The notes under the pieces: model-generated
Told to the model about the DNA's origin: nothing
Database searches by the model: none
Seen by the model: only the letters and a program-made list of their open reading frames with translations
In this document: piece after piece, positions 20,955-48,458 of the stretch
Position numbering within the stretch: position 1 is the first letter of the stretch
Layout: the number at the start of each line of letters is the position of its first letter
Source: Candidatus Marinarcus aquaticus
GTDB taxonomy: Bacteria > Campylobacterota > Campylobacteria > Campylobacterales > Arcobacteraceae
DNA length: 64,000 nucleotides
NCBI RefSeq assembly: GCF_004116335.1
Contig: NZ_PDKN01000005.1
Span: 1-64,000 of the forward strand
Direction of reading: 5' to 3'
Made by a program: the position numbers and the translations under genes

Positions 20955-21500
20955 ATGGCTGAAAATGAAGAAGTAGTAGTACAAGAGACGAAATCTGGTG
21001 GAAAAGGATTGATGATTGCACTCATTGCACTCATTGTTATTTTAATCTTAGTGGTCATTGGTGGGGGATATTTACTCTACTCAAATGGAGCATTCAGTTC
21101 AAACAATAATCCAACTGCTCAAAATGGTGCAGTCCAGCAAGAAGAGCCTCAAGCACGAACAGGTGATTATTTTAAAGTTGATATTAATGATATGGTTTTA
21201 AATATTACCAATGCTAAAGGGCGTGAGAAGTTGATGAAGTTGTCTTTTTCAATCAAGAGTACCGATGAGATGATTGAGCAACTTGTTGAAGAGAATAAAG
21301 CTGAAATCATTGATGTGGTGATTTCACAAATCAGTTCAAGAAACTCTGAAGAGCTTTTAACTGTTGGAGGGAAAGAGCTTTTAAAAGAGGAGTTGATTCA
21401 AGAGATTAATGCGGTGTTAAATCAAGCCATTGGAGAGAATACTGATTTTCAAAAAGACAGTGTGAAGAATATCTACTTCACAGCCTTTGTAATTAAATAG
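20955..21500 (+). CDS. fliL: Flagellar basal-body associated protein FliL
   Basis: A 181-residue protein with one membrane helix (GLMIALIALIVILILVVIGG, residues about 19-40) and a periplasmic domain. The domain contains KVDINDMVLNITNAKGREKL, LSFSIKS and EIIDVVISQISSRNSEELL, matching FliL, which rings the stator and supports torque. AAAGGGTAGATAGA precedes the start. It follows the MotE-like gene after 12 bases. Confidence 0.9.
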   Translation: MAENEEVVVQETKSGGKGLMIALIALIVILILVVIGGGYLLYSNGAFSSNNNPTAQNGAVQQEEPQARTGDYFKVDINDMVLNITNAKGREKLMKLSFSIKSTDEMIEQLVEENKAEIIDVVISQISSRNSEELLTVGGKELLKEELIQEINAVLNQAIGENTDFQKDSVKNIYFTAFVIK

Positions 21501-21510
21501 CGAGTCAAAC

Positions 21511-21930
21511 ATGATAGTAGCAGTCAAACGTTCAAGTTATAAAAAGATGGTCATCAAAGTAATATCATTTGTTGCATTGGTTACAATGTTTATTGCTTAC
21601 TATTTTCATATGAGTGAGAAATTTGCGCAAGAGGAACAAGCAAAAGCAGATTTGGCACAAGAACAAAAACTCAAACAAGAACGCTCAGCTGCCATTGAAA
21701 ATATCATTTATAATGAGGCACAAATTGCGGTGGATTTATTAAATCAGGAGCATGTAAGAAATATCAAAGTTATTGCAAATCGTCTTTATATTGTATGTGA
21801 TCCGCAAACAAATTTGGATGCATTGATGGTACGATATGGGGTGATGGCATTGGTAAAAACGTCGGTTAATGATACAAAAATTGCCATTGATTTAAAACAG
21901 ATTATTGAGAGTAAATATCGTGAAGAGTAA
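21511..21930 (+). CDS. Membrane-anchored protein of unknown function in the flagellar operon
   Basis: A 139-residue protein. Basic N-terminus, one membrane helix (VIKVISFVALVTMFIAYYF, about residues 13-31), a charged coiled coil (EQAKADLAQEQKLKQERSAA), and a small domain with IENIIYNEAQIAVDLLNQEH and NIKVIANRLYIVCDPQTNLD. It lies between fliL and flgH and overlaps flgH, so it is part of the flagellar unit. I know no named family. It could be another stator- or ring-associated periplasmic factor. Confidence 0.75.
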   Translation: MIVAVKRSSYKKMVIKVISFVALVTMFIAYYFHMSEKFAQEEQAKADLAQEQKLKQERSAAIENIIYNEAQIAVDLLNQEHVRNIKVIANRLYIVCDPQTNLDALMVRYGVMALVKTSVNDTKIAIDLKQIIESKYREE

Positions 21931-22636
21931 GCCTTTTTTATATCTTATAAGTGGGATGCTTGTGAGTGTTCTTTTTTCAGGGTGCGTACAAAAAGAGTTG
22001 GATTTTGAACAACCGAAGATACAGATTCCTAAAAAGCAAGAGCGACCACAAAATAAAAAAGGTTCTTTATACTCCAGTCAAGGAGGGTCGCTGTTTGCAG
22101 ATAAAAAAGATCTACAAATTGGGGATATCATTCAAGTCATTATTAATGAAGCTTTAACCGCCGACAGTGATAACAGTCGAGATACAACAGGTAATTCAAG
22201 TGGTGGCTTTAATGGAATTGTTTCAGGACCCAATGCAACCAATACCAACCCCTCTTCAACAATCAATAAACTCTCAGAGAAGTTGAACAGTAATTTAGGG
22301 TTTAATATTGATGTGGGCTCAAAGTCTTCATTTTCAGGTACGGCTGAAAAGCAAATTGATGAAAAGTTTGAAACAACGATTTCTGTGATCATTGAACAAA
22401 CCTACCAAAATGGAAACTACTTTATCAAAGGTTCCAAACAGATGCTCATTGATGGACAAAGCCAAGAGATTAAAGTAAGTGGTGTGATTCGTCCATATGA
22501 TATCTCTCCAGAAAACAGTGTACTCTCCTCACAAATTGCAAACTTAAAAATTATGTATGAAAAAGATGGTGAAGAAGCAGATGCATTACGTACACCGTGG
22601 GGTTTAAAGATACTTCGTGCATTATGGCCATTTTAA
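21920..22636 (+). CDS. flgH: Flagellar L-ring lipoprotein FlgH
   Basis: About 238 residues. I prefer GTG at 21920 (an upstream TTG at 21905 is possible) because it gives a compact lipoprotein signal ending VSVLFSGC, with the lipid-bearing Cys near residue 22. The mature part has GSLYSSQGGSLFADKK, LQIGDIIQVIINEALTADSD, IEQTYQNGNYFIKGSKQ and VSGVIRPYDISPENSVLSSQ, the classic FlgH motifs. It builds the outer-membrane ring matching the FlgI P-ring. The gene overlaps the previous one by 11 bases. Confidence 0.95.
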   Translation: MKSKPFLYLISGMLVSVLFSGCVQKELDFEQPKIQIPKKQERPQNKKGSLYSSQGGSLFADKKDLQIGDIIQVIINEALTADSDNSRDTTGNSSGGFNGIVSGPNATNTNPSSTINKLSEKLNSNLGFNIDVGSKSSFSGTAEKQIDEKFETTISVIIEQTYQNGNYFIKGSKQMLIDGQSQEIKVSGVIRPYDISPENSVLSSQIANLKIMYEKDGEEADALRTPWGLKILRALWPF

Positions 22637-22719
22637 TAAAAACTTGTAATAAATTATAAATTACTGTAAAATAGGTAAAAAATAATAAAAATACTTGATA
22701 AATAATAAAAAAAGTAATA

Positions 22720-22730
22720 TAATGTCAAAA
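22720..22730 (+). promoter_or_regulatory. Shared upstream motif TAATGTCAAAA, first flgK-like gene
   Basis: The 11 bases TAATGTCAAAA also occur before the second flgK-like gene (24738-24748). Here they overlap a TATAAT (22718-22723) and could be part of a promoter or a binding site. The gene starts 41 bases downstream. Confidence 0.35.
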
Positions 22731-22771: not shown

Positions 22772-24688
22772 ATGTTAAATACATTGGATGTCGCCTATTC
22801 AGGGCTTTCAATATCGAAGCGTGCCGCAGATGCTGCCAATAACAATGTTGCAAATCAGATGAATAAAGAGTATGTTCGTCGTTCAACATCTATTTCAGAA
22901 GCTGCACATATTGATAATCGCGCAACAGGTCGTGGTGTGGATATCGGAGAAACCATTCGTAATGCCAATGATTTTATTTACCAAAACTTTCTTGGTGAAT
23001 CCACTTCAATGAACTATTATAAAGAGGTTTCAGATGCCTTAAGTACGATTGAATCATTTTTTAAAGAGACTGAAAACAGTGGTTTCTCAAAAGATTTGGA
23101 TGCCTTTTTTCAAGCCATTGAAGATTTAAAAAGCAATCCAAGTAATACAACATTTCAAGCAGAATTAAAAACACGAGGACAAATTGTCGTTGATGATTTA
23201 AAAGGGTTATATCAACATCTCAATACTCAAGAAGCAGAACTCAGATCTGAGTTAAAATCAGACGCACGAAATATCAATCGAATTGTGCATGATATTGCCA
23301 ATATCAATGAACATCTTGCAACAACGTTGGTGCCACAAAACACCCTTTTAGATAAACGTGATGCGTTGGAAAAAGAGTTGGCACAACTCGTGGATATCGA
23401 TGTGTCAAAACAAAACGGAGAATATATCCTTAAAATTGGAAACGTGACCGCGGTTCGAAATGATATTGCACGTGAATTTAGCTATGGTGAAGAGCATATT
23501 GCTCAATTGGATCGCTATACAAAAGAGGATGGTAGCGGAAATGTAATCAGTTCATTTGATGGTATCATGGGCAATGCCAATGATAAAGTTATTTATGAAT
23601 TGAATGATACCACGAGTATTGAACTCACATATGGACAAGCGGTGTATGATGCCAATGGAAATCAACTCGATTTAAATGGAGATAATATAATAGATGCTGC
23701 AGATGTGGTTGATGATACCAATATTGTTCGGGCTTTGGTTTTAACCATTAACAATGATCCTGAAATGAGTCAAATGATTACAGCATATAATGGGAATTAT
23801 ACCAAAGACAGTGATGGAAACATTACTCCCGACCCTGATAATACGGTTGATCGATATTTGGTCATTGAATCAAAAAAAGAGGGCGCTGAAGGAAAATTTA
23901 AAGGCGATTTGATCTATTTAACTGACAGTGATGCGAATAATCAATATGAAGTCTCTACGTACAATAAAGATGAAACTCGAAGTGTGGTTGGAAGCAGTGA
24001 GAGTTATATCAGCAGTTATGAACAAAAAGTTGAAATTGCAGGTGGACCGGTAAAAGCTAAAATTGAAAATTTGGATACCACGTCACCTAATAACTATATT
24101 CAGATGTTTAAAGATAAGTTGGATATGTTTGCTGCAACACTCAGTGATATGACAGAAAAGTATGTTTTAAATCAAGATGGCAGTTATATTTATGGAGAAA
24201 CCGCAATCAATAACAGTGGTGAAGAGTATAACAATAAACAAAGCATGAAACTCTTTAATGGAAACAGTATTGCAACGCTCTCATTTAATAAATCGACTGT
24301 GGCGTATTTAGACCAACAAGATTATGATTATCTCTCTTCTTTACAATATAAAAGTGATATTTTGTTCAGTTCAAAAGGGCAAGTCAGTACCACACAAACG
24401 TATGAAGATTTAACAAGTGATGGAACAAACGGTACGAGTTTTTCAAAATATTTTCAAGGATTCCAAGTCGATATTGCTTTTACAAAGAGTAATACAGATT
24501 ATAAATTTGATACACAACAAATTGTGACGCAATCTTTAGAGAACTCATACAATCAGTTGGTCAAGGTTGATGAAGATGTAGAGATGTTGAACATCATGAA
24601 ATTTCAAGCAGCATATGAAGCCAATGCTAAGATAGCAAGAGTGCTTCAAGATATGATACAAACGACTTTGAATATGGTGAATAAATAG
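22772..24688 (+). CDS. flgK: FlgK-like flagellar hook-associated protein, first copy
   Basis: A 638-residue secreted protein that joins hook to filament. It has the N-terminal rod motif LDVAYSGLSISKRAADAANN with ANNNVANQMNKEYVRR, a central acidic domain and the FlgK end MLNIMKFQAAYEANAKIARV. The central domain carries an EF-hand-like loop at residues 300-311: D300, N302, D304, I306, D308, D311. AGGAGTACGCT precedes the start. A paralogue follows at once, and which of the two is the main HAP1 is not clear from sequence. It has its own upstream spacer of 135 bases, so probably its own promoter. Confidence 0.85.
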   Translation: MLNTLDVAYSGLSISKRAADAANNNVANQMNKEYVRRSTSISEAAHIDNRATGRGVDIGETIRNANDFIYQNFLGESTSMNYYKEVSDALSTIESFFKETENSGFSKDLDAFFQAIEDLKSNPSNTTFQAELKTRGQIVVDDLKGLYQHLNTQEAELRSELKSDARNINRIVHDIANINEHLATTLVPQNTLLDKRDALEKELAQLVDIDVSKQNGEYILKIGNVTAVRNDIAREFSYGEEHIAQLDRYTKEDGSGNVISSFDGIMGNANDKVIYELNDTTSIELTYGQAVYDANGNQLDLNGDNIIDAADVVDDTNIVRALVLTINNDPEMSQMITAYNGNYTKDSDGNITPDPDNTVDRYLVIESKKEGAEGKFKGDLIYLTDSDANNQYEVSTYNKDETRSVVGSSESYISSYEQKVEIAGGPVKAKIENLDTTSPNNYIQMFKDKLDMFAATLSDMTEKYVLNQDGSYIYGETAINNSGEEYNNKQSMKLFNGNSIATLSFNKSTVAYLDQQDYDYLSSLQYKSDILFSSKGQVSTTQTYEDLTSDGTNGTSFSKYFQGFQVDIAFTKSNTDYKFDTQQIVTQSLENSYNQLVKVDEDVEMLNIMKFQAAYEANAKIARVLQDMIQTTLNMVNK

Positions 24689-24737
24689 AGTTTAAGAAAA
24701 AGAAGTAGATATAAAATTAATCTAGTTTTAAGAAATG

Positions 24738-24748
24738 TAATGTCAAAA
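24738..24748 (+). promoter_or_regulatory. Shared upstream motif TAATGTCAAAA, second flgK-like gene
   Basis: Same 11 bases as at 22720-22730, here 29 bases before the second flgK-like gene and followed by TATACTAAA. The repeat of an exact 11-mer in both leaders suggests common control. Confidence 0.35.
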
Positions 24749-24777
24749 TATACTAAATCTTATAAAAGGAGTATACA

Positions 24778-26652
24778 ATGTTAAATGGCATCTATATAGC
24801 AGAGTCTGGCTTATGGTCTGCTCGTGTCTCTCTTGAGAACGTCACTAACAATATTGCCAATGAAAATACTCCTGGTTATAAGAAACGAACCGTGAATGTT
24901 TCTGAAACAGGAAACAATAGTTCTGGTATTGGTCGAGGAACAACAGTTGGTGATGTGGTACGTGCTACAAGTGATTATTTGTATGATAACATCATGGATG
25001 AAACAACAAAAGAGGCCTATCTTGATGAATTATCAAGTATGCTTGGACAAATTGAGGCATTGTTTCAAGGTACTGAAACAGCAGGACTAGCAACAGATTT
25101 GGATAAGTACTTTAAAGCATTGGATAATTTAAAAAGTAATCCAACAGATGCCAATTATATCAGCAGTTATATTGCGCAAGCCAAAACACTCGTAGAAGAT
25201 CTTAAAACGATTTATTCAGGAATTGAAGCACAAGAAGCGATTGCAAAAGAGAGTGCTGAGCTTGATGTAAAAGAAGTGAACTCTTTATTGCAACAAATTG
25301 CAGATATCAATCATGAGTTAGGAACCAAATCTGAACCAACGAATGATTTATTGGATAAACGAGATTTATTGGAAAAACAGTTGGCGAAATATGTTGATAT
25401 TGAAGTACACCGTGAACAAGAACCCTACGAATTGAGTATCAATGGAGTCACTGCAGTTTGGCATGACAGCGCTCGAGAATTCAGCGTTGGACAAAGCGAT
25501 TCACCACAAAGAGATAAATATGTTGCGGCTGATGGCACCACAAGCTCCTTGGCTGCGCGTATTGGAACAATGGATGCAGACGATACGATTGTATATACGG
25601 TTAATAATGTGGGAAGTGTTGAAATCAAATTTGGTGAATTTGTGACCGATTCTCAAGGCAACGCTTTGGATATCAATGGTGACAATATTGTAGATGCTTC
25701 AGACAGAGTCGATGATACAAACTACGTACGTGCATTGGGTGTGGCAATCAATAATGACCCTTATATGAATAAACTTGTTACAGCTTATAATGGAAGTTAC
25801 AGCAAAGATGTCGATGGTAATATTATTGAACCTGATTTGAGCGCTGAGCGATATTTATTGGTTGAGGCAAAAAAGGGAGGCCCACAAGGTGACTTTGAAA
25901 GCACATTGGAGTTTAAACGGGCAGATGCTACGGGTGTTACTGAAAATATGGCATTTGAACGTACTGAATCACAAAGCCGAGATGGGAAAACAGAAGTCTA
26001 CTTAGAGAGCAAAGGTCGACGTGTTGATATCACGGGTGGTTCTTTGTTGGCACGTTTTGAAAACTTAACCACAGATTCAGGAAAAAATAAATATCAAGCG
26101 TATAAAGATTTATTGGATCAATTTGCATTTACATTCAGTGACTTGCACAGAGAATATGCAGTGTCTTCAACAGATGGTTCTTATTATTATGGGGAAGATT
26201 CTTTAAATAATGTGGGAACCAATGTGCAAAATGCACACGCATTAAATCTTTTTTCTGGAAGCAGTGTGAAGACATTGGAATTTAATGAGTTGGCTGTACA
26301 AGATTTGGATACTATGGATTTGGATTATTTAGTGACCTTACAATCAAAATCGGATCTTTCGTTTGAAAATGGACCACAAAACCCTGATTCAATTTCATCA
26401 ATGTCATTCATGGATTTTTATAAAGATATATTGGTCAAAGTCTCTTCAGATAAAGAGAATACAGACTTTTTATTGGAGTCTCAACTAAGTGTAACTCAAT
26501 CCTTGTCATCGACGTATGATCAAGTTGTTAAAGTCGATAAAGATGAACAGATGTTAGATTTGGTCAAGTTTCAAGCGGCTTACGAAGCCAATGCAAAAAC
26601 AATAACAGTAATGGATCAGATATTACAAACACTCTTAGGTATTAAGAGATAA
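24778..26652 (+). CDS. flgK: FlgK-like flagellar hook-associated protein, second copy
   Basis: A 624-residue paralogue of the preceding gene. N-terminus IYIAESGLWSARVSLENVTN with NNIANENTPGYKKRTVNV is closer to the consensus FlgK/FlgE opening (NTPGY) than the first copy. The end, MLDLVKFQAAYEANAKTITV, is typical FlgK. It too has an EF-hand-like loop at residues 298-309: D298, N300, D302, I304, D306, D309, at the same place as in copy one. AAAGGAGTATACA precedes the start, and fliD follows after 12 bases. Confidence 0.88.
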   Translation: MLNGIYIAESGLWSARVSLENVTNNIANENTPGYKKRTVNVSETGNNSSGIGRGTTVGDVVRATSDYLYDNIMDETTKEAYLDELSSMLGQIEALFQGTETAGLATDLDKYFKALDNLKSNPTDANYISSYIAQAKTLVEDLKTIYSGIEAQEAIAKESAELDVKEVNSLLQQIADINHELGTKSEPTNDLLDKRDLLEKQLAKYVDIEVHREQEPYELSINGVTAVWHDSAREFSVGQSDSPQRDKYVAADGTTSSLAARIGTMDADDTIVYTVNNVGSVEIKFGEFVTDSQGNALDINGDNIVDASDRVDDTNYVRALGVAINNDPYMNKLVTAYNGSYSKDVDGNIIEPDLSAERYLLVEAKKGGPQGDFESTLEFKRADATGVTENMAFERTESQSRDGKTEVYLESKGRRVDITGGSLLARFENLTTDSGKNKYQAYKDLLDQFAFTFSDLHREYAVSSTDGSYYYGEDSLNNVGTNVQNAHALNLFSGSSVKTLEFNELAVQDLDTMDLDYLVTLQSKSDLSFENGPQNPDSISSMSFMDFYKDILVKVSSDKENTDFLLESQLSVTQSLSSTYDQVVKVDKDEQMLDLVKFQAAYEANAKTITVMDQILQTLLGIKR

Positions 26653-26664
26653 TAGGAGGCTATT

Positions 26665-28245
26665 ATGGCTGATGGTATTTTAGGACTAGGAAGTTCAGGA
26701 TCAACAGGATTAAATCAAGAATTAATCGATAAATTAAAAGAGGCAGAAAGAAAAGCTCGTGTTCAACCCATTGAAACAAGACTTGAAGATTGGGATACAG
26801 AAGTTGAACAATTTGGAGAGTTTGAAGCGAAAGTTAATGAACTTTTAGCCATTGCAAAAGAGTTTGACTTATTTAAAAATGGGGCGAACGCATTTGAGCA
26901 AATCTTTGCAACTACCAGTGGAACTGCAGTTGCTTTTGATGCTGCAGATACCAGTAAACTTAAACCAGGTACAATCAATGTTGAAGTCACTCAACTGGCT
27001 CAAAAAGATGTCTACCAGTCAAGTATTATTGCAGATAAAACGGCAACAATGGATGCAGGAACCATATCCATTTCAGTGGGAGGTGATACCCCAATTGATT
27101 TTGACACAACCGGTAAGACGTATGAACAAATTGTAGCAGAGATGAACAACTATCCATCATTGGATGCTTCATTGGAACAAGTGGGTGACAGTGAATACCG
27201 TTTGATTATTAAAAGTGGAGAGAGTGGTCTGTCGAATGCTTTAGACATCACTCAAAGTGGTGGCGTTAACATTGGATTAGGTAACTCTGTGGTTGAAAGT
27301 GGCAGTACGATTGTGGGTACTGATATTCCAACGGCGGGGCAAGAGATTACTGTTAACGGCGTTACATTTGTGGCTGATGGTAATAAAACCTATAATGACA
27401 TTGCTTCAGAAATATCTTCAGATGGTTCAATTAACGTGACTGCAAGTATTAGTGATGGAAAATTTGTCATTACAAGTGATGATGGAAGTGCCATTTCGAT
27501 TACCAATGATACAATGTTGGGCTTAGAAGACAAAAGTCAAACCTTAACAGCACAAAATATGTTAGCTACAGTGGATGGAATTGATTATAATCTCTCTTCA
27601 AATCAGATTACGATGCAAAATGGATTGACAATCTCTGCTTTAGAAGTAGGTACAGGTTCTATCTCTATGCAACAAGATACGGCAAATATTGAGACAAAAA
27701 TGCAAGAGCTTGTTACAAAATATAATGAGTTGAATGATATAGTTTCAAACTATACCATCAGTGCCGATTCTAAAATCGAAGATAAAGCAACATTACGAAG
27801 CGTCATGAGCCAAGTAAAAGATATTCTTTTTGGTGCTTATGGTGAAAACGATGAAAAAAGTATTTTTAGTTATGGATTTAATTTAGATAAATCTGGACAT
27901 ATTACAATTGATTCGACTGAGTTTAATAAAGCTGTGACAGATGATTTAGATGGACTAAAGTCTCTCTTTATTGGTGTTGCTGAAGACAGAGGTATTGGTA
28001 CCAAACTTAAAGAGTATCTTGACGATTTAGACAGCTTTGAAGGTCTGTTGACGGTCTATGGGGATGCGATGTCCACACGAAAAGACAATTTAGAAGAGGA
28101 AAAAACAAAAGCAATTGAGGCACTGGACAGTAAATATGCTCAATTGGCCAATCAGTTTGCAGCGTATACAGCTATTATTTCTAAATTTGAAAGTGCGTTT
28201 GGTGGGTTACAAATGATGATTGCGCAGTCAAAAGCGAGCAACTAA
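26665..28245 (+). CDS. fliD: Flagellar filament cap protein FliD
   Basis: A 526-residue secreted cap protein (HAP2) that guides flagellin assembly. The N-terminal region has GSTGLNQELIDKLKEAERKA, as in the FliD N domain, followed by TINVEVTQLAQKDVYQSSII. The repeated beta domains lie in the middle, and the C-terminal coiled coil includes LEEEKTKAIEALDSKYAQLA and ANQFAAYTAIISKFESAFGG. AGGAGGCTATT precedes the ATG. It is linked to the second flgK and probably read together with it. Confidence 0.93.
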   Translation: MADGILGLGSSGSTGLNQELIDKLKEAERKARVQPIETRLEDWDTEVEQFGEFEAKVNELLAIAKEFDLFKNGANAFEQIFATTSGTAVAFDAADTSKLKPGTINVEVTQLAQKDVYQSSIIADKTATMDAGTISISVGGDTPIDFDTTGKTYEQIVAEMNNYPSLDASLEQVGDSEYRLIIKSGESGLSNALDITQSGGVNIGLGNSVVESGSTIVGTDIPTAGQEITVNGVTFVADGNKTYNDIASEISSDGSINVTASISDGKFVITSDDGSAISITNDTMLGLEDKSQTLTAQNMLATVDGIDYNLSSNQITMQNGLTISALEVGTGSISMQQDTANIETKMQELVTKYNELNDIVSNYTISADSKIEDKATLRSVMSQVKDILFGAYGENDEKSIFSYGFNLDKSGHITIDSTEFNKAVTDDLDGLKSLFIGVAEDRGIGTKLKEYLDDLDSFEGLLTVYGDAMSTRKDNLEEEKTKAIEALDSKYAQLANQFAAYTAIISKFESAFGGLQMMIAQSKASN

Positions 28246-28315: not shown

Positions 28316-28672
28316 ATGGGGATTGAAGTATACAACCAACAAAATGCTATCAGTGATGATCCTTATGTATTAATTTTAAAGCTGTATGAAGGACTCTTAA
28401 AATTTTTATCTCTTGCAAAAGCTGCAATGGAAGAGGGTGATATTGAAGCAAAATTCACTTATATCAACAAATCTATTGCTATTTTTGACGAGTTAAGAAA
28501 TGTGCTTGATTTTGATGGTGGAGATGTGGCGTATTATTTAGATGGATTATATCTTTACCAAATTGAAACACTTTTTTCTGCTGGAATTGATAATAATGTT
28601 GGTTCAATGAATCAAGTAATGAAAGTAGTTCAAGGATTAATTGAAGCATGGAAAGACGAGACTGGTCTTTAA
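28316..28672 (+). CDS. fliS: Flagellin export chaperone FliS
   Basis: A 118-residue helical cytoplasmic chaperone that keeps flagellin unfolded before export. Family motifs are VEVYNQQNAISDDPYVLILKLYEG-like at the N-terminus (IEVYNQQNAI, then LILKLYEGLLKFL), KFTYINKSIAIFDELRNVLD, and YLDGLYLYQIETLFSAGI. The last 25 bases overlap the next gene. GGAG lies seven bases before ATG. Confidence 0.93.
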   Translation: MGIEVYNQQNAISDDPYVLILKLYEGLLKFLSLAKAAMEEGDIEAKFTYINKSIAIFDELRNVLDFDGGDVAYYLDGLYLYQIETLFSAGIDNNVGSMNQVMKVVQGLIEAWKDETGL

Positions 28673-48092: not shown

Positions 48093-48458
48093 ATGAAAAC
48101 AAAAGATGAAAAAAAGCTTGTGCGTTCATGTTGTGAAGGGGTGAGTTATATCTCAGATATTAATAAACAACTTCCAACAAACAATGAACTTATCAATATA
48201 ACCAATGTATTTAAAGCATTGAGTGACCCAACTCGTGTGAAGATGTTGTATGCTCTAATGGAATATGAGATTTGTGTGGGGGAGATGTCCAATTTGCTTC
48301 AAATACCTCAATCGCATGTTTCACATCAATTGCGTATATTAAAGAAGTATGGTATTGTGGATTTTGAAAAAGATAAAAAAATGTCTTTTTATCACATCAA
48401 AGAGGAGTATATACGTGAACTCTTACAGTTCATGCTCAGTAAAAGAAAGGAGCCGTAA
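48093..48458 (+). CDS. ArsR/SmtB-family metal-responsive repressor
   Basis: A 121-residue repressor. The N-terminus has a Cys pair (VRSCCEGVSY). The core is ALSDPTRVKMLYALMEYEIC, then VGEMSNLLQIPQSHVSHQLR (recognition helix) and the wing FEKDKKMSFYHIKEEY. The EICVGEM part recalls the ELCVGDL of SmtB. It would sense a metal, presumably copper from its partners, and act at the palindrome upstream. Cu-responsive regulators are usually of other families, so the pairing is noteworthy. Its stop shares a base with the copA start. Confidence 0.85.
   Translation: MKTKDEKKLVRSCCEGVSYISDINKQLPTNNELINITNVFKALSDPTRVKMLYALMEYEICVGEMSNLLQIPQSHVSHQLRILKKYGIVDFEKDKKMSFYHIKEEYIRELLQFMLSKRKEP

Follow-up and report, generated by a model that had tools for sequence, protein, structure and literature searches.

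Tandem FlgK paralogues in Candidatus Marinarcus aquaticus: calcium-type loops in domain D2 and a diverged rod motif in one copy

The locus described here raises the question of why a bacterium should keep two adjacent genes for FlgK, and whether the acidic loops that occupy the same place in both products bear on the answer. It lies in the stretch of 64,000 nucleotides of Candidatus Marinarcus aquaticus DNA that was analysed as a whole, hereafter the window (contig NZ_PDKN01000005.1, positions 1 to 64,000); all features located below are on its forward (+) strand. FlgK is the hook-filament junction protein, and the Salmonella junction, as described in the part of PMC12221982 consulted, contains one kind of FlgK in eleven copies forming a single layer.

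The two genes are genuine tandem FlgK paralogues. The reading frames flgK1 (K1; 22772..24688, 638 aa) and flgK2 (K2; 24778..26652, 624 aa) are both open, AAAAGGAG precedes each, and their products score above the cut-off (170.75) of TIGR02492, the NCBI FlgK equivalog, with 186.7 bits for K1, where the alignment begins at residue 3, and 236.7 bits for K2; the original prediction of two FlgK-like proteins at these positions is thereby borne out. Both also match FlgK_D1 (PF22638; 106.6 and 119.3 bits for K1 and K2) and Flg_bbr_C, the C-terminal rod-type D0 (24.9 and 34.6 bits, cut-off 23). They are 42% identical over their full length and provide the only FlgK_D1 matches in their own genome. The neighbouring genes are flgH on the 5' side of K1 (21905..22636; PF02107, 154.1 bits) and, on the 3' side of K2, fliD (26665..28245; FliD_C and FliD_N matches) and fliS (28316..28672; PF02561, 100.6 bits). 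A sigma-70-like promoter consensus (TTGATA-17-TATAAT, 11/12 match) is found 5' of K1 at 22695..22723; this is a consensus match only, and the region has 23 such sites on both strands against a mean of 18.2 in shuffles.

Predicted structures agree with this assignment. The two AlphaFold models, made with 7 sequences, have mean pLDDT of 69.3 and 67.6 and fall below 50 at the ends. The K1 model superposes on Salmonella FlgK 2D4Y (Z 28.5, 2.5 Å over 316) and Campylobacter jejuni FlgK 5XBJ (Z 25.1, 3.2 Å over 343), and the K2 model does likewise (Z 28.9, 2.6 Å over 314, and Z 26.1, 3.0 Å over 334). K1 and K2 thus share sequence models, domain order and fold with the known FlgK (HAP1) proteins of C. 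jejuni (5XBJ, 9GSX) and Salmonella (2D4Y, 9GO6), but differ in occurring as two tandem copies per genome, in the diverged rod motif of K1 and in an acidic 12-residue loop in D2.

The pair appears to be peculiar to the genus. It was found in both genomes examined there, those of the window species and of its sister species UBA4036. Among the matches listed for the other 102 genomes of the family, of which the best 12 candidates at most were scored per genome, 91 genomes have a FlgK match of any kind and none has an adjacent second full-length FlgK; the other 246 genomes of the order sample, including 13 further multi-match genomes inspected individually, likewise contain no tandem flgK. In two quick trees made without bootstrap, one of 42 family rows with 4 outgroups and the other of 60 rows, the K1 and K2 of both species group together in a single clade, with SH-aLRT 97 and 98; within it the two K1s separate from the two K2s, each couple with a support of 100 in the 42-row tree. 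The trees indicate a tandem duplication in the ancestor of the genus, before the window species and UBA4036 separated. An assembly artefact is unlikely because the same pair recurs in the second assembly, that of UBA4036, where the orthologues are 58% (K1) and 63% identical to those of the window. Between the species dN/dS is about 0.17 for K1 and about 0.11 for K2, with dS near saturation, and the comparison indicates purifying selection on both copies.

Two other explanations of an extra FlgK were considered. A second flagellar system finds no support as the source: the short-type FlgKs of the family (423-560 aa, n=10) do not have the loop (0/10), and the four placed in a tree branch outside the K1/K2 clade. 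Seven of these short proteins come from genomes with a long-type FlgK elsewhere; three genomes (G055, G058 and G002) have no long-type FlgK among the matches listed, so the label "second" is not true of all. When P0001 was compared with plasmids, weak matches of FlgK type appeared in five records. It is also unlikely that FlgL was lost and K1 serves as its substitute, as a 471-aa FlgL-like protein is present. It adjoins fliI (757.6 bits, cut-off 644) and matches TIGR02550 (FlgL) from end to end; its name is uncertain because the score of 117 bits is under the cut-off of 127.2, and its Pfam Flagellin_N score is likewise below cut-off. Across the family the D-x-[DN]-x-D core occurs somewhere in 10 of 30 FlgLs, and a full EF-type 12-mer in 2 of 30, at scattered places. 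Literature searches for two, duplicated, tandem or paralogous FlgKs, with PMC9321776 consulted in part, gave nothing on point among the matches listed; the label "flgK2" does appear, once each, in four papers whose titles concern other bacteria or protein interactions.

The loops themselves are found where they were first read. Residues 300-311 of K1 (DLNGDNIIDAAD; 23669..23704; model pLDDT about 75-78) and 298-309 of K2 (DINGDNIVDASD; 25669..25704; about 85) are calcium-type 12-residue loops in a motif scan, both fit D-x-N-x-D-x-I-x-D-x-x-D, and both lie at the same site in domain D2. Aligned sequence places a second acidic loop in the same domain of K1 (residues 346-356, DSDGNITPDPD; 23807..23839) and in K2 (residues 344-353, DVDGNIIEPD; 25807..25836). 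Each protein has the 12-residue pattern once, and no other stop-to-stop frame of at least 100 codons in the window contains it; its DNA form matches at six sites across the 2.53 Mb genome, these two loops included, and the reversed pattern at one. In 20,000 composition-preserving shuffles the exact 12-mer appears in 0.015% (K1) and 0.02% (K2), and the general EF-hand-like D-x-[DN]-x-D-x-x-[ILV]-D-x-x-[DE] in 0.23% and 0.29%. The looser Dx[DN]xD[GSN] is weak evidence on its own, since 18-19% of shuffles contain a match, and, the genes being paralogues, the occurrences in K1 and K2 do not count as independent. The window's two proteins resemble each other most closely around the loop (68%, against 42% overall). 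Recent gene conversion finds no support as the cause: identical residues around the loop have identical codons in 14 of 33 cases, compared with 128 of 257 gene-wide, and the lack of an excess suggests that the likeness reflects constraint on the amino acids.

A calcium loop of dockerin/EF-hand type had been proposed here, and the ligand positions uphold that proposal while the surroundings do not. Asp, Asn and Asp are present at positions 1, 3 and 5, a hydrophobic residue at 8 and Asp at 9 and 12, so that both loops have acidic or amide ligands at 1, 3, 5, 9 and 12, and a helix begins a few residues later as in dockerin and EF-hand domains. An EF-hand has a helix on each side. In the predicted models a strand (K1 281-286; K2 279-284, followed by a turn) precedes the loop and a helix (K1 318-328; K2 316-326) comes after it. 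A dockerin consists of two loop-helix repeats within one domain, whereas K1 and K2 have a single loop of this kind. Pfam searches gave no EF-hand match at cut-off for the full-length proteins (E 0.1) or the D2 fragments, the best profile being EF-hand_5 in the K1 fragment only (E = 6, 7.0 bits, cut-off 25.9); no dockerin match was listed for proteins or fragments, and the fragments contained no other domain at threshold. The PROSITE EF-hand pattern fits K1 and fails at the last position of K2.

A closer likeness is to the Dx[DN]xDG calcium loops, which, in the part of Rigden et al. 2011 (PMC3123361) consulted, occur in many folds and often among relatives with or without a longer loop. K1 and K2 share with them the Asp-x-(Asp/Asn)-x-Asp core, the hydrophobic residue at 8 and Asp at 9 and 12, and the FlgK family likewise has a long loop in some members and a short, motif-free loop in others. 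They differ from that group (PMC3123361) at position 6, where Asn replaces the usual Gly, and are best called candidate metal sites. UBA4036 K2 has Ser at this position. Calcium binding by the loops is plausible. Domain D2 is exposed in the solved junction, according to the part of PMC12221982 consulted, and we incline slightly to the view that each loop would take up one structural Ca2+ after secretion, once the protein reaches the calcium-rich exterior, and so stiffen or fold the D2 turn. Searches for FlgK with EF-hand or calcium, Arcobacter FlgK with calcium and flagellar calcium loops gave nothing on point among the matches listed, and a term search of the main text of two FlgK structure papers did not find "calcium".

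The loop is, however, not a special feature of the pair, as the idea of a two-component junction had implied. The comparison used 61 long-type FlgKs of the family collection (Arcobacter group), comprising the K1 and K2 of the genus and 57 further proteins, one each from 57 of the 102 remaining genomes of the family; short-type rows (n=10) were counted separately and, like L010 (Acidobacteriaceae), excluded. Three more rows, L008, L009 and L078, were omitted: L008 and L009 agree in length and score with L048 and L078, and L078/L009 is a truncated protein. The D-x-[DN]-x-D core is present at the aligned D2 site in 40 of the 61 (66%) and in 0/10 short-type FlgKs, and is widespread in genomes with no tandem pair. 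The typical site is a length-variable turn, D-x-[DN]-x-D(G), between a beta strand and a helix starting near VDxTNYxRAL. If a loop could be read in either of two registers, the more EF-like one was counted, and three of the 40 loops (L044, L045 and L074) fit poorly. The full acidic 12-residue pattern is found in 8/40. The matching position of the loops in K1 and K2 is, on this comparison, a matter of descent, an old family trait rather than one specific to the pair.

The same survey bears on whether any metal is bound. There is a real possibility, though short of even, that the loop binds none and is a fast-evolving acidic surface turn, its EF-hand spacing a product of drift in an Asp/Asn/Gly-rich loop. 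The loops of the family differ greatly in length and sequence, the core is missing in 21/61, and the trait has changed at least eight times on the 60-row tree (with the truncated L060 left out), so the loop is not essential to FlgK; the Asn at position 6, the lack of an EF-hand model at threshold and the scatter of calcium-like patterns in family FlgLs (core 10/30, full 12-mer 2/30) would fit drift as well. Against this, the core recurs at one site in 66% of the proteins compared with 1.8% of windows elsewhere in these proteins (120/6735) and 3.5% of shuffles, 36 of the 40 core loops have D/E/S/T/N at position 9 and 34 have Gly at 6, and no other stretch is as well conserved between the window's K1 and K2 as that around the loop. 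Chance origin was rejected both for the strict 12-mer, by its shuffles, and for the family-wide site, by these controls.

More unusual than the loop is a change in K1 at an assembly end that is normally well kept. The original prediction held that both copies keep FlgK ends; this is so for Flg_bbr_C in both and for Flg_bb_rod in K2 (29.0 bits, cut-off 20.7), but Pfam finds no Flg_bb_rod match in K1. The N-terminal rod motif, residues 20-40 of K1 (22829..22891), is mostly NNIANENTPGYKKR in the family, and K1 matches the consensus at 29%, UBA4036 K1 at 52%, K2 at 86% and UBA4036 K2 at 90%. With the truncated L060 left out, the minimum among 56 FlgKs outside the genus is 67%, so that both K1s fall below all 56 and the window's K1 is the most divergent of 60. 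The N-terminal stretch 1-62 of the window's K2 is also low, at 55%, with 1/56 others no higher, and in D1 (residues 65-240) each of the four copies ranks close to the bottom, with 1-2/56 no higher; the whole pair is fast-evolving, and the drift of K1 is therefore clear-cut only in the rod motif and the C-terminal D0.

It might be supposed that K1 is decaying, a partly redundant dosage copy whose D0 is under relaxed constraint. Its higher dN/dS, the divergence of the rod motif in both species and the loss of both the first and second acidic loops from UBA4036 K1 would be in keeping with this. We consider it unlikely: neither K1 orthologue has lost its reading frame of about 600 codons, and the two are 58% identical in spite of near-saturated synonymous sites. 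The drift of K1 at the rod motif and the C-terminal D0 suggests instead that it probably has a specialised part to play at the hook-filament junction, for instance as a minor component of the FlgK layer or as a replacement used under certain conditions, while K2, in which the rod motif is kept, would be the ordinary junction FlgK.

A further reading, that of the original prediction, is that both proteins build a mixed K1/K2 junction in one flagellum and that the loops are a calcium-clamping adaptation for sea water. The genes are adjacent, conserved and open, the loop is in both window copies, the FlgL-like protein of the genus also has an EF-like stretch, and, as the genome contains one FliD_N match (fliD next to K2) and one match for the FlgL-like protein, a single set of partners seems to serve both FlgKs. 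We nevertheless regard it as quite improbable, because the loop is common where there is no tandem pair and is lost in UBA4036 K1, and because the rod motif of K1 is diverged; stacked FlgK layers were moreover modelled to clash in Salmonella (PMC12221982), a result that does not count against mixing inside a single layer. More doubtful still is an elaborated form in which the genus junction would consist of FlgK1, FlgK2 and FlgL, hetero-oligomeric and responsive to outside calcium; a calcium ion would clamp D2 in FlgK2 and in FlgL (in the window species also in FlgK1), and FlgK1 would have a distinct position in the 11-subunit layer or a separate tier.

Taken as a whole, the account we favour, and hold to be rather probable, is that flgK was duplicated in tandem in the ancestor of the genus, that both copies have been retained under purifying selection, that their loops were inherited from the long-type FlgKs of the family and putatively hold a metal in the D2 turn, and that K1 has become specialised. 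With two FlgKs retained and a D0-end motif altered in one of them, the genus offers a natural test of how strictly the FlgK layer is specified. Should the D2 loops prove to bind calcium, an outward-facing metal site on the flagellum would be common to many FlgKs of the family, one of which our literature searches found no description, and the strength of the junction could depend on the medium.

The flagellar gene run of the window starts with fliL at 20955 and continues through a small open reading frame at 21511, which has weak similarity of the FliL type, and flgH at 21905 to two adjacent genes, flgK1 (22772-24688, plus strand, 638 aa) and flgK2 (24778-26652, plus strand, 624 aa), followed by fliD at 26665 and fliS at 28316. 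The products, K1 and K2, both score above the NCBI FlgK cut-off and are 42% identical over their full length. The original prediction of a FlgK pair with acidic 12-residue loops (D-x-N-x-D-x-I-x-D-x-x-D) proved precise, the 12-mers lying at residues 300-311 of K1 and 298-309 of K2. The leaders of the two genes also have TAATGTCAAAA in common (22720-22730 and 24738-24748, 52 and 40 bases upstream of the start codon), perhaps as a duplicated 5' leader; this 11-mer occurs once more on the same strand, at 48456.

The strict 12-mer appears in 0.015-0.02% of shuffled K1 and K2 copies and in no other frame of at least 100 codons in the window, and its DNA form occurs at only six sites in the 2.53 Mb genome, the two FlgK loops among them. 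The FlgK pair aside, the clearest calcium-type loops of these six matches are at 66185-66318 of contig C9, where two full EF-type patterns, DVDQDGVVDNLE and DSDFDGVIDDKE (standard code), stand in the same frame 99 bases apart. Seven sequences underlie the AlphaFold models of K2 and K1 (mean pLDDT 69.3 and 67.6), which resemble the FlgK structures 2D4Y (Z 28.9 and 28.5) and 5XBJ (Z 26.1 and 25.1). In the D2 domain of K2 they place the loop after strand 279-284 and before helix 316-326, at a pLDDT of about 85; the K1 loop has the equivalent place, at about 75-78. Passages of a paper on the solved junction describe D2 as facing outside (PMC12221982).

Within the Arcobacter group, the core of the loop, D-x-[DN]-x-D, is present at the aligned D2 site in 40 of 61 long-type FlgKs (four from the window's genus, the rest from 57 other genomes of the family, one from each) as against none of 10 short-type FlgKs. 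The latter are encoded at other loci than the long type, seven of them in genomes with a long-type copy as well and three in genomes with none among the matches listed. Control rates for the core are 3.5% in shuffles and 120 of 6735 in other windows of the same proteins. Loop forms span DWNGDGTATTDT and DTDGDGNPDFTV up to the full EF-type DLNNDGNVDAGE in genus g18, whose four examined FlgKs belong to genomes without an adjacent second copy. The full acidic 12-residue pattern is seen in eight of the 40 core-bearing loops, including three from the window's genus, and the family tree requires eight or more changes of loop state. The loop thus belongs to the D2 turn as an inherited but labile trait, and is not a special device of the duplicated genes. 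The sharpest test of a need for the loop in both copies is the same tandem pair in the sister species UBA4036; there K2 retains the loop as DINGDSIVDAND, but in K1 a short turn stands in its place and the second acidic loop is gone as well, so a loop in both copies is not needed by the genus. A different Dx[DN]xD motif in FlgK, a block of the D[DN]NxD[NG] type, is carried by 22 of 30 order-level FlgKs (L089-L118), about 190-205 residues before the C-terminus except in the truncated L112; none was seen in the family rows scanned by the same pattern.

That the FlgK loop is a calcium site seems to us slightly the better reading. It is favoured by ligand spacing and enrichment at a single aligned site, by 68% agreement over the loop stretch against 42% overall between the diverged K1 and K2, without codon identity, and by the origin of Dx[DN]xDG loops through turn lengthening in some relatives, as described in parts of PMC3123361. 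Against it stand Asn at position 6, the lack of a helix before the loop, the frequent loss of the loop and the failure of any family model to reach threshold. In their main text, neither the paper describing the Campylobacter FlgK crystal nor the one on the Salmonella/Campylobacter junction contains the word 'calcium'. The original interpretation is upheld in part: the loops are real and a calcium role is plausible, if unproven, but they are inherited family features.

A FlgL-like junction protein encoded outside the window (L125; contig C6, 112107-113519; TIGR02550 117 bits, below the cut-off of 127.2) carries IDNGDGIVDGGDD, an EF-like stretch without the first Asp in register that is identical in its UBA4036 counterpart (L126). 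Of 52 genomes with a match, 30 were scanned, and none of the 28 other family FlgLs had this stretch. Ten of the 28 have the D-x-[DN]-x-D core at another place, and two of those ten (L147, L151) have a complete EF-type 12-mer. Since loops of this kind are not unusual in FlgL, IDNGDGIVDGGDD adds little weight to the original idea. Flagellin_N matches on contigs C7, C13 and C15 of the window's genome begin only at model position 65, those on C7 and C15 at base 4 of the contig, and the assembly was probably broken here by repeated flagellin genes. Two more matches fall within open reading frames coding for 293 and 303 aa, and a 268-aa protein barely over the Flagellin_N cut-off (L087; contig C2, 271124-271501) adjoins an exopolyphosphatase-type gene.

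The four FlgKs of the genus form one clade (SH-aLRT 97 and 98 in two quick trees without bootstrap) in which the two K1 proteins pair with each other, as do the two K2 proteins, a grouping that points to one tandem duplication earlier than the split of the two species. Between species, dN/dS is about 0.17 for K1 and 0.11 for K2, with synonymous sites near saturation. No second full-length FlgK lies beside the first in any of the other 102 genomes of the family (91 with any match; at most 12 candidates per genome scored), and no tandem FlgK was found in the other 246 genomes of the order sample (207 of 248 with a match). Thirteen further order-sample genomes have two FlgK matches; on inspection of each, the extra match was a piece of one open reading frame, a contig fragment, a distant short-type copy or sub-threshold, apart from one genome (G177) with two copies of like size on separate contigs. 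The portions of the literature searched gave no description of a tandem FlgK pair.

The D0 end of FlgK is where subunits polymerise, and a change of role would therefore show there. D0 is reported to face the channel in the solved junction, in passages of PMC12221982. Most of the family has NNIANENTPGYKKR at residues 20-40; here, consensus match falls to 29% in the window's K1 and 52% in that of UBA4036; the two K2 proteins reach 86% and 90%, and the minimum of 56 other proteins is 67%. The Pfam rod model matched K2 and not K1, and in the C-terminal D0 both K1 proteins have a 57% consensus match, equal to the lowest of the others. The window's K2 is also low when residues 1-62 are taken together, at 55% (one of the 56 others is no higher), and all four proteins of the genus rank near the bottom of the family range in D1. 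The K1/K2 pair as a whole is therefore fast-evolving, which tells against clear-cut separate roles for its two members. The genus-specific tandem duplication, with its rod-motif-altered K1, is a more unusual finding than the loops.
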